Source: Sneathiella sp.
GTDB lineage: Bacteria; Pseudomonadota; Alphaproteobacteria; Sneathiellales; Sneathiellaceae
Assembly (NCBI GenBank): GCA_002732675.1
Contig: NVRR01000093.1
Location: forward strand, 1 to 10,165
Direction: 5' to 3'
DNA: 10,165 bases
Part shown: positions 5,919 through 9,180 of the stretch, one piece after another
Numbering within the stretch: position 1 is the stretch's first letter
Layout of the letters: every line of letters starts with the position of its first letter
Program-made: the position numbers and the translations under genes
Notes under the pieces: model-generated
What the model saw: the letters and a program-made list of their open reading frames with translations, nothing else
The model's database searches: none
Told to the model about the DNA's origin: nothing

Positions 5919-6824
5919 CTATTTCTCTGGCAAAAGGTATTTCGACAAAAAGGCGGGCAATTGCTGAAGTGCTGCGTTTCGCGATTCCTCGTGGGTGCCG
6001 ACAATAGGGATCACACCGGAAACGGTTTTATATTTCGGCAATGTCATTATTTTTAGTGCCGGAGCGTCAAAGCCGTGATAAGCGCCGGGAAAGACGGTTA
6101 TGGAAACCGGGTTTCCTCGTTTTTGTACCGTTTCAATGAATTGAACGCAGGGCGCGAGCAAGGTCCAGTTATCTGAGCCGCCAAAGAGCACAAGCAGCGG
6201 AATTTTCGTCGACCAGCTGTTCGGCTCTATTTTCGTATAAGGCCTAGACTGTATCCGATCACTACAAAGCGCTGGATAAAAGGCGGCGGCAACGGCGAAA
6301 TCATGTTCCGGCAGCGGTACGGGCCGGCCACTGCTGTCATGTTCAATGGTGAGCAATACGACCCCGCCGCCTTGCGACCAACCGACGACACCAATTTTAT
6401 CGCCAAGGATAAAATCCTGCGCCTGCAAATAGGCAAGCGCTGCATAGGCGTCCTTGGGGCGTTCACGGTACATCCGAACCCGGTTTTTGCTCTTGCCGCA
6501 TGTCGGCCCAAGCCCCCGCGACCCTCGGCTATCGACCAGCAGAACGGCAAGCCCCTTGGCAGTCAGTTGCTGCACCCAGCTGGCATAAATGGAGGTGACA
6601 TAGCCCGAATACATCATCCCGCCGCAGCCATGTAAAAACACAACGGCGGGATAAGGCCCTTCCCTATCCGGTCGCACCAGATAGGCCGTTAGGTCAAGAC
6701 TATCGGCATTTTGAAAATTTACCTTTTCATATATCCCCGCCTCAACGACGGTCAGAAACATAAAAAAAGATGCCAGAGCCGCAAGGGCACCGCAGGACTT
6801 AGGAATGAACTTTCTTATCCGCAT
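5919..6824 (-). CDS. Secreted dienelactone-hydrolase-like alpha/beta hydrolase
   Basis: A 301-residue alpha/beta hydrolase resembling the dienelactone hydrolase (DLH) family. The N-terminus has a basic start (RIRKFIPK), a hydrophobic segment (about 11-28) and a cleavage-like VEAG, so it is probably exported. Fold landmarks: HGCGG at 65-69 (oxyanion-hole loop), the nucleophile elbow GWSQGG with S150, an acidic residue D218 in LFGGSDNW, and H250 in GAYHGFDAP, giving a plausible S150-D218-H250 triad. True dienelactone hydrolases use Cys as nucleophile, so the substrate here is probably another ester or lactone and is not predictable. The start ATG at 6824 lies 26 bases inside the end of ribF, with AGGA about 7 bases before it, so translation is probably coupled to ribF. 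Hairpins directly after its stop suggest its transcript ends there. Confidence 0.85.
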   Translation of the reverse strand: MRIRKFIPKSCGALAALASFFMFLTVVEAGIYEKVNFQNADSLDLTAYLVRPDREGPYPAVVFLHGCGGMMYSGYVTSIYASWVQQLTAKGLAVLLVDSRGSRGLGPTCGKSKNRVRMYRERPKDAYAALAYLQAQDFILGDKIGVVGWSQGGGVVLLTIEHDSSGRPVPLPEHDFAVAAAFYPALCSDRIQSRPYTKIEPNSWSTKIPLLVLFGGSDNWTLLAPCVQFIETVQKRGNPVSITVFPGAYHGFDAPALKIMTLPKYKTVSGVIPIVGTHEESRNAALQQLPAFLSKYLLPEK

Positions 6825-7779
6825 ACTTATCCTGACTGCTTTTCTTGCTTGATAAAAGACGGCGGGCGGTTTCTGCGTCCAGCTCTATCTGTTTTTCCAG
6901 CTCCTCTATCCCGGCGAATTTTACTTCCGGGCGAATGAAATCGACGAACGCCACGCGCAGGGTCTGACCATACAGATCGCCTGAGTAATCGAGAAGATGG
7001 ACCTCCAACAGGACATCTTTCTTATCAAACGTCGGGCGATTGCCGAAATTGGCAACGCCGTCAATCCAGTCGACATGGGTGCCGTTATGCAACCCCACCC
7101 GGACCGCATAAACGCCCAGCTTCGGGTAGTGATAGCCGAGAAGCGGGATATTCGCTGTCGGAAAGCCAATGGTTCGGCCGCGCTTGTCACCTTCGACCAC
7201 TTCCCCTTCGATTTCCCACCAATGCCCCAGCAAGGACGCTGCCTTCCCCGGATCACCGGCTTTAAGGCATTCGCGAATGGCCGTGGAGGAAAAAATGATC
7301 GTCTGTTCGCCGACCGGTTCGACAACGGTCAGTCCGAAGCCATATTTTTTTGCAAAATCGCCGAGAACAACCGTCGTGCCCTGTCGCTTATGCCCGAAAA
7401 TGAAATCATAGCCGACAACCACGTGGACGGCGCCGTAGCCCTCGACCAGGACGTCATGCACAAATTCTTCAGCCGATTTTTGCGAGAATGCCAGATCGAA
7501 ATCAACAGCCGCCATCACATCGACGCCCAGCCATTTCAGATGTGCTGCTTTCGTCTCCATACTGGAAATACGAAACGGCGGTGCATCGGGCGCAAAAAAC
7601 TCTCGCGGATGCGGCTCGAACGTCAGCACACCGGACGGGACACCCAATTTATCCGCGACTTCCTGCGCATGGGCAATCACGGACTGATGCCCTCGGTGAA
7701 CGCCATCAAAATTACCAATCGCCAAAACCAGTCCCTGGCATTCTTCGGGAACGTCTTTATAGGAGCGTAAAATGCGCAT
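6799..7779 (-). CDS. ribF: Bifunctional riboflavin kinase / FAD synthetase
   Basis: A 326-residue cytoplasmic enzyme that phosphorylates riboflavin to FMN and adenylates FMN to FAD. The N-terminal FAD synthetase (nucleotidyltransferase) domain shows GNFDGVHRGH at 22-31, FEPHPREFF at 54-62, VVGYDFIFGHKRQG at 121-134 and SSTAIR at 164-169. The C-terminal riboflavin kinase domain (about 185-310) shows GRTIGFPTAN at 201-210 with the PTAN ATP/Mg-binding motif, GVYAV at 222-226, NFGNRPT at 244-250, and the catalytic-type Glu in LEVHLLD (E259). The last ~16 residues are a Lys/Ser-rich tail that also encodes the binding site and start of the overlapping hydrolase gene. The start is ATG at 7779, with AGGA about 13 bases upstream. 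It begins 28 bases after the chimeric gene, so it is probably co-transcribed with it. Confidence 0.96.
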   Translation of the reverse strand: MRILRSYKDVPEECQGLVLAIGNFDGVHRGHQSVIAHAQEVADKLGVPSGVLTFEPHPREFFAPDAPPFRISSMETKAAHLKWLGVDVMAAVDFDLAFSQKSAEEFVHDVLVEGYGAVHVVVGYDFIFGHKRQGTTVVLGDFAKKYGFGLTVVEPVGEQTIIFSSTAIRECLKAGDPGKAASLLGHWWEIEGEVVEGDKRGRTIGFPTANIPLLGYHYPKLGVYAVRVGLHNGTHVDWIDGVANFGNRPTFDKKDVLLEVHLLDYSGDLYGQTLRVAFVDFIRPEVKFAGIEELEKQIELDAETARRLLSSKKSSQDKYADKKVHS

Positions 7780-7807: not shown

Positions 7808-8365
7808 TTATTCTTTGTTACGCTTTGATACCATCAAAGTAGCCTCGCCATCCAGCACAACCGTATCGCCAATGGTACAGACGCAATCAAACATGACCCG
7901 TTTCCCTTTGATCTCACGAATTGTCGCCTTCGCAACGACCGTATCACCGATGCAAACCGGCGCCTTGAAATTAAGCGACTGGTTCATGTAAATGGCGCCG
8001 GGGCCGGGCAATTTGGTGCCAAAAACCGTGGACAGAAGCCCGGCTGACAACATGCCGTGGGCGATCCGCTCCTTGAAGATTGTATTTTCGGCAAATTCCG
8101 CATTCTCGGACAGAAACCCGTAGCCAGGATGAATGGCCTGGGCGCCAGTTTGGCGCGCCGCCTCCAAAATAACATCAGCTTTCAGGTAGCTTTGCGATAC
8201 CTCGGCGGTGCCGATCCGGATCGCTTCATCCGCCATCTGCACATGCCGGGCATCCGCATCGGCATCGGAGTAGACAGCAACTGTTTTCACGCCGAGTTTC
8301 GTTGCTGTTTCCATCACCCGGCAAGCAATCTCGCCGCGGTTTGCTATTAAAATTTTATCAAACAC
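7808..8365 (-). CDS. In-frame chimera: biotin-carboxylase N-terminus (MccA-like) joined to the C-terminal part of a MaoC/PhaJ-type hydratase
   Basis: The 185-residue frame changes family part-way. Residues 1-93 align without gaps to the start of biotin carboxylases ([16 protein letters not shown], then [17 protein letters not shown]), as in AccC or the alpha subunit of methylcrotonyl-CoA carboxylase. From about residue 94 it is instead the end of a MaoC/PhaJ (R)-enoyl-CoA hydratase: [33 protein letters not shown], then PVCIGDTV to the C-terminus. Missing are the rest of the biotin carboxylase with its ATP-grasp domain and the biotin carrier (about 570 residues), and the first ~40 hydratase residues with the catalytic DxNPxH motif. 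Neither activity should survive; I infer a non-functional remnant or an assembly mis-join. The start is GTG, 20 bases after liuC, with only a weak binding site (GAGCGAG). Position after mccB-liuC fits mccA; a MaoC gene next to ribF would fit the other parent. Confidence 0.88.
8087..8104 (-). other. Fusion junction between mccA-like and maoC-like sequence
   Basis: These 18 bases encode NAEFAE (residues 88-93 of the chimera). Biotin carboxylases read FLSEN-x-x-FAE here. PhaJ-type hydratases read NPLHLD-x-x-FA, then TxF and the I-(A/V)-HGM motif. The stretch therefore fits both parents and is where a microhomology-driven join would be expected. The exact breakpoint within it cannot be set from one sequence. 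Confidence 0.7.
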
Positions 8366-8385: not shown

Positions 8386-9180
8386 TTATGAAAGGATCCA
8401 GGAAGGCTTTCGTTTTTCAAGGAAGGCAGTAACACCCTCTACCCCCTCCTTCGTCTTGCGCCGTGCGGCAATGCGCGACGCCGTATCATTGATGACATCT
8501 TGCTCAATCGGGCGGCCAGCCACCGTGTAAATCAGATCTTTTGAATCGGCCATAGCGCCCGGTGCGTTTTTCATAATCTGGTTCAGAATTTCGTCCCGCG
8601 CTGGCGCCAGTTCATGCACATCATCAACCAGCTCATGTAGCAACCCGATACGATAGGCTTCCTCGGCGTCGAATAATTCAGCGGTCAGAAAATATCGTCG
8701 GCTCGCCCGAACGCCGATCGCTTCCACCACGTAAGGAGAAATCACGGCGGGCAGCAAACCGAGTTTCACTTCTGAAAGACAGAATTTTGCACTTTTAACA
8801 CCGATGGCGATATCGCATGCGGCGACAAGGCCAAGCCCGCCGCCATAAGCCGCCCCCTGAACCAGCGCGATCGTTGGTTTCGGAATGGCATGGAGGTTTT
8901 TAAGCATCCGCCCAAGTGCGAGACTATCTTCGCGGTTGTCTTCCTCCGTGAATTCCGCCGCCCGCTTCATCCAGTTCAAATCGGCCCCGGCGCAATAGCT
9001 TTTCCCTGCCGCCGCAACGACGACGGCACGTACACCGTCCTGATGCCCGACATCGATAAACATATCCCCGAGCCGCTCAATCAGTTCCTCGTCAAAGGCG
9101 TTATGAACCTCCGGACGGTTCAGGGTGATGGTCGCAATGCCGTCTGTTGAAAAATGTAATACAGCAGATTCTTCACTCAT
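8386..9180 (-). CDS. liuC: Enoyl-CoA hydratase family, probably 3-methylglutaconyl-CoA hydratase
   Basis: A 264-residue crotonase-fold protein of normal family length. In leucine/isovalerate degradation LiuC hydrates 3-methylglutaconyl-CoA to HMG-CoA. Motifs: NRPEVHNAFD (21-30), SYCAGADLNWMK (61-72) where CAGAD forms the first oxyanion-hole strand and ADLNWM is typical of LiuC/GnyH as I recall, GGGLGL (113-118) for the second oxyanion-hole NH, and CLSEVKLGLLPAVISPYVV (134-152) with the catalytic-type E137. The position of the first crotonase Glu is Gly117, which I recall as usual for this subgroup. The specific substrate rests mainly on the motif and on mccB lying 24 bases upstream; a general enoyl-CoA hydratase role is the alternative. 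The start is ATG at 9180 with a strong binding site. The MccA-like chimera follows 20 bases downstream, as in liu operons. Confidence 0.88.
   Translation of the reverse strand: MSEESAVLHFSTDGIATITLNRPEVHNAFDEELIERLGDMFIDVGHQDGVRAVVVAAAGKSYCAGADLNWMKRAAEFTEEDNREDSLALGRMLKNLHAIPKPTIALVQGAAYGGGLGLVAACDIAIGVKSAKFCLSEVKLGLLPAVISPYVVEAIGVRASRRYFLTAELFDAEEAYRIGLLHELVDDVHELAPARDEILNQIMKNAPGAMADSKDLIYTVAGRPIEQDVINDTASRIAARRKTKEGVEGVTAFLEKRKPSWILS

Follow-up and report, generated by a model that had tools for sequence, protein, structure and literature searches.

The open frame analyzed here has two close counterparts among described proteins. One is the alpha subunit of methylcrotonyl-CoA carboxylase (mccA/liuD; PF00289), which the frame resembles over residues 1 to 93 and in its context, with mccB and an enoyl-CoA hydratase family gene (ech) beside the frame and hmgL on another contig (C195) of the same genome; the frame, however, ends at residue 93 of about 673 and lacks the ATP-grasp domain and the biotin carrier. 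The other is the MaoC (R)-specific enoyl-CoA hydratase (PF01575). Residues 88 to 185 of the frame correspond to residues 48 to 145 of an intact MaoC, P0004, and ribF follows, but the frame is without the first 47 residues, including the sequence SGDTNPVH. The D-x-N-P-x-H residues of MaoC/PhaJ hydratases are catalytic.

A third comparison is with the errors of draft genomes assembled from metagenomes. As excerpted, PMC7111523 describes such genomes as carrying local assembly errors and chimeras that can be recognized by missing read support, the chimeras being joins of two different organisms and called rare. The contig studied here, C85, resembles the assembly errors of that excerpt in that it belongs to a fragmented draft, contains an implausible join, and has other contigs that end there or close by. 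It differs in that the chimeras of the excerpt join different organisms, and in that the excerpt names read support as the test, whereas C85 was judged by contig ends, gene order in relatives, and protein matches.

Draft genome and neighborhood of the frame

The window, meaning the whole stretch of DNA that was analyzed, is the entire contig C85 (10165 bases). The draft genome from which it comes has 243 contigs and 2.36 Mb, with an estimated completeness of 65.9%; the fragmentation and the completeness suggest that the genome was assembled from a metagenome. Contig C137 of the same genome (L035, 3-623) holds another biotin carboxylase frame, which the contig end cuts after the first 207 residues and which is therefore a further sign of a fragmented draft. 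In the window, mccB and ech precede the mccA start, as they do in the relative G020 (Table 1). The first 26 bases of a dienelactone-hydrolase-like gene (5919-6824; named by eye) overlap the end of ribF, and the same 26-base overlap occurs in G020 (L005, 2780 and 2805).

Table 1. Features of the window at and around the chimeric open frame
Feature	Coordinates	Strand	Evidence
ribF (riboflavin kinase/FAD synthetase), normal neighbor of maoC	6799..7779	-	NCBIfam above cut-off; maoC-ribF order in G020
maoC 3' end (MaoC/PhaJ-like hydratase) including the stop codon; corresponds to residues 48-145 of an intact protein of 145 residues	7808..8104	-	98/98 identity to P0004; ribF next, as in G020
Join, at most 21 bases compatible with both genes (GAATGCGGAATTTGCCGAAAA)	8085..8105	-	Codon comparison with relatives and P0004
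mccA 5' end (methylcrotonyl-CoA carboxylase alpha), unambiguous for residues 1-87	8105..8365	-	Biotin_carb_N; identity to relatives; gene order; continues on C195
ech (enoyl-CoA hydratase family), leucine-degradation cluster, context of mccA	8386..9180	-	NCBIfam crotonase/gamma-carboxygeranoyl-CoA hydratase, below curated cut-offs; same order in G020
mccB (carboxyltransferase subunit), cut by contig end	9205..10164	-	Carboxyltransferase family match, below curated cut-off; G020 counterpart 535 residues

Two truncated domains in one open frame

Open reading frame analysis gave a frame of 185 residues with a GTG start on the minus strand at 7808-8365. Pfam placed Biotin_carb_N (PF00289) on residues 1 to 94 (model positions 1 to 94 of 110; E value of 1.2E-38) and MaoC_dehydratas (PF01575) on residues 89 to 156 (model positions 40 to 108 of 123; E value of 2.5E-11). 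The matches are significant but partial, so that each of the two domains is genuine and truncated: the MaoC domain is without its N-terminal part, and Biotin_carb_N is incomplete as well. Residues 1 to 93 are of the mccA type, and neither the ATP-grasp domain nor the biotin carrier of mccA was found in the frame by Pfam. The D-x-N-P-x-H motif, which in P0004 directly precedes L-NAEFAE, is also missing. The first-pass annotation had described this frame as an mccA start switching at NAEFAE to a MaoC hydratase end, with both parents cut inside their domains and deprived of ATP-grasp, biotin carrier, and DxNPxH. The Pfam coverage, the separate family match of each half, and the alignment with P0004 all bear out that description, and the mccA remainder lies collinear on C195. 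In a protein collection, the frame appears as one entry, P0003, of 185 residues and with the two domains.

The join falls within codons N88 to E93 (NAEFAE), at 8087-8104 of the window. Compared with relatives and P0004, the codon before NAEFAE is mccA-like (E), and the codon that follows is MaoC-like in its third base (N, not K). The 21 bases given for the join are an upper bound derived from this comparison. The 18-base core of the join has one exact occurrence in the draft genome, and the GC content is alike on either side (0.537 versus 0.544).

mccA and maoC are separate genes in relatives

The window was compared with 23 other genomes of the same genus. All 23 had a maoC match, and 20 had a close match to mccA, among them G009, where the frame is broken; G008, G012, and G016 gave no mccA hit at an E value of 1E-35 and fall outside the junction count of 20. 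In 19 of the 23 genomes, the closest match to the mccA part of the window has 72 to 84% identity, and in the 20th, G009, it has 73%. At the position of the join, every maoC gene (23/23) runs upstream into [S/T]GDTNP[V/I]H, and every mccA gene (20/20) runs downstream into F[I/V]GPP. Comparison of the locus in close relatives thus showed separate mccA and maoC genes and no chimera in any of these 23 genomes. The maoC matches of G015 and G023 were stretched, beginning at query residues 18 and 38, respectively; considered as possible chimeras, they were rejected, having the normal motif upstream and being MaoC genes.

Three same-genus genomes have both genes on one contig, 0.29, 0.54, and 2.02 Mb apart. 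In G011 (maoC at 1118064, mccA at 1408647, both on the plus strand) and G005 (maoC at 1327447, mccA at 1864565, both on the plus strand), the two genes share a strand and maoC is the first of them, and in G022 (maoC at 813454, plus; mccA at 2835394, minus) the genes are on opposite strands with 2.02 Mb between them. Because of this order and these strands, no short deletion could join the start of mccA to the end of a downstream maoC in any of the three. The gene order of G020 fits two continuous arrangements, C151|maoC-ribF and mccB-ech-mccA|C195, in which the window supplies one side of each and another contig of its own genome the other.

At the join, the mccA sequence of 19 of 20 relatives is SENA[D/G/A/E/S]FA[E/D]K, and 11 of 23 have HLNAEFAE[K/N/Q] in maoC. 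As relatives of both genes have NAxFA-like residues there in the same frame, an in-frame product needs no selection. The exact in-register run common to mccA and maoC was 3 to 11 bases in all 20 relatives tested; none of the 20 had NAEFAE in both genes, and in 2 of them mccA has E at the third place. It follows that this strain must have either an unusually alike mccA/maoC pair or an overlap shorter than 21 bases. For a genome of 2.36 to 3.6 Mb, composition predicts that repeats of 21 bases or more would arise by chance 1.4 to 3.2 times and those of 20 bases or more 5.5 to 12.9 times, so that such shared pairs are not rare genome-wide.

The missing halves of both genes

When the G020 mccA was searched against the draft genome, query residues 99 to 668 matched bases 4275 to 5984 of contig C195 (5985 bases). 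This contig opens inside mccA, with the last base of codon 99 and then residue 100, and mccA stays open for 573 residues; beyond it are hmgL and three more genes in the order of G020. The C195 part of mccA presumably holds the ATP-grasp and biotin carrier domains, as they are listed for P0122. The distance from residue 87 to the residue at which C195 starts is 12 residues in 114 of 115 relatives of at least 640 residues (119 other hits, 4 of them shorter than 640 residues and dropped; the remaining 1 of the 115 was not fully aligned at both places). As the window provides 6 of these 12 residues (NAEFAE), 17 bases are missing between the join and C195. Among the matches listed, P0123 was the nearest both to the C195 remainder (80%) and to the mccA start in the window (86%, tied with P0143), which fits one mccA split between two contigs; no near-identical full-length mccA was among them, the best being 80%. 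Contigs C137 and C60 were considered as sources of the missing part and rejected, since the biotin carboxylase genes on them are different ones, with 53% and 44% identity to the G020 mccA.

The cheY-like gene that lies upstream of maoC in relatives was found on contig C151 (7275 bases), whose end on the maoC side lies 191 bases upstream of cheY. The spacing between cheY and maoC was 224 to 286 bases in all 22 relatives with cheY in view (G015 was left out, its match being too weak at 19/128 residues and its maoC being near a contig end). From this spacing, C151 is estimated to stop 33 to 95 bases before the maoC start and 174 to 236 bases before codon 48. A search of the draft genome with the intact MaoC gave, besides the copy in the window, ten weak matches (26 to 37% identity), and it found the 5' part of maoC, its first 47 codons, in none of the contigs. 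The exact matches between the window and C195 or C151 were of 13 to 15 bases and at unrelated places, so that neither contig overlaps the window at the join. The protein collection does contain an intact MaoC: P0004, of 145 residues and from a 15.6-kb contig with the source codes lgn and ena, was the best match after the window's own protein, has a normal start with SGDTNPVH, and from NAEFAE to its end is identical to the frame at 98 of 98 residues.

No second example of the join was found. Among the 24 same-genus genomes, that of the window included, no protein other than the window's own spanned both halves. The 8000 best candidates were scored and gave 7997 protein matches; among the 120 of these that were listed, both halves scored only in the window's own protein. 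In a scan of named genomes (best 80 matches), no query residue beyond 110 was matched, and no literature was found that brings together methylcrotonyl-CoA carboxylase, MaoC, and gene fusion.

Origin of the join

The frame very probably consists of parts of two ordinary genes, mccA and maoC, that were wrongly joined in assembly, and is not a fusion fossil. This reading rests on how the genes are ordered in relatives, on the existence of an intact MaoC, and on the quality of the draft, and not on the contig ends alone, since a mis-join and a reciprocal rearrangement give the same tangle of ends. In the real genome, a whole mccA would lie within mccB-ech-mccA-hmgL and a whole maoC between the cheY-like gene and ribF. 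Read coverage would have been lost just past mccA codon 93, leaving the gap of 17 bases before C195, and likewise just ahead of maoC codon 48, leaving the estimated 174 to 236 bases after C151. Two loose ends would then remain, alike across NAEFAE over at most about 21 bases. With neither true continuation there as a competitor, the assembler may have joined them unopposed. If coverage was interrupted on both sides in this way, a shared stretch that long would probably suffice for such a false join. The true continuations are found elsewhere, that of mccA on C195 of the same genome and that of maoC as the intact P0004 in the protein collection. A mis-join at a short shared sequence had been named earlier as the alternative reading, and the C195 and C151 ends, the relatives' gene order, and P0004 now favor it.

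We also considered a real, recent, strain-specific rearrangement at NAEFAE, most plausibly an inversion or a large tandem duplication, which would have produced a true in-frame chimera, the other pieces being moved away or retained elsewhere and the mccA remainder still being present. The reading frame stays open through the join, its flanks are alike in GC content, and with the arrangement of G011 and G005 a tandem duplication of 290 to 540 kb would give exactly such a join. Moreover, the mere 3 to 11 bases shared in relatives would be no obstacle to a real break, and this short run slightly lowers our confidence in a mis-join and slightly raises the standing of a rearrangement. Even so, we regard a rearrangement as unlikely, given that an intact MaoC with the identical 98 residues lies on another contig of the protein collection and that the join occurs in none of the other same-genus genomes. 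Both C195 and C151 break off at the join or close to it, and neither showed a reciprocal junction; this makes a rearrangement less probable, although a true one at these bases would produce the same ends.

The origin proposed in the first-pass annotation, a gene-fusion fossil left by a microhomology-mediated deletion between mccA and a downstream maoC, would suit the position of the join in codons resembling both genes. It has become highly improbable, since the mccA 3' end that should have been deleted is present with hmgL in the same genome (C195), since the two genes are 0.29 to 2.02 Mb apart in relatives, with maoC ahead on the same strand or on the opposite strand, and since an intact MaoC exists. 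The fossil is refuted unless C195 is foreign to this genome; C195 is collinear with G020, and P0123, the full-length protein listed as nearest to its mccA piece, is nearest (tied) to the mccA piece of the window as well. Least credible of all is a functional new family of fused enzymes: the open frame would agree with it, but both domains are cut with loss of their motif-bearing parts, and the window itself is the one example among the 120 listed of 7997 matches.

The frame should accordingly be marked as mis-assembled and kept out of catalogs of new domain architectures, although P0003 could pass for one; the case matters only as a caution. It also illustrates a cheap check that needs no reads, namely, to seek the missing halves in the same draft genome and to see where their contigs stop.

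Among the relatives, the mccA of G009 (L166, G009:C8:110200-111700) was broken near its 5' end, with the N-terminal match in a frame of 104 residues and YSS instead of IHP before GYGFLSEN. The break would be a frameshift or a sequencing error. P0169, a 558-residue mccA of S. glossodoripedis without PF00289, may be the same gene as that of G009.
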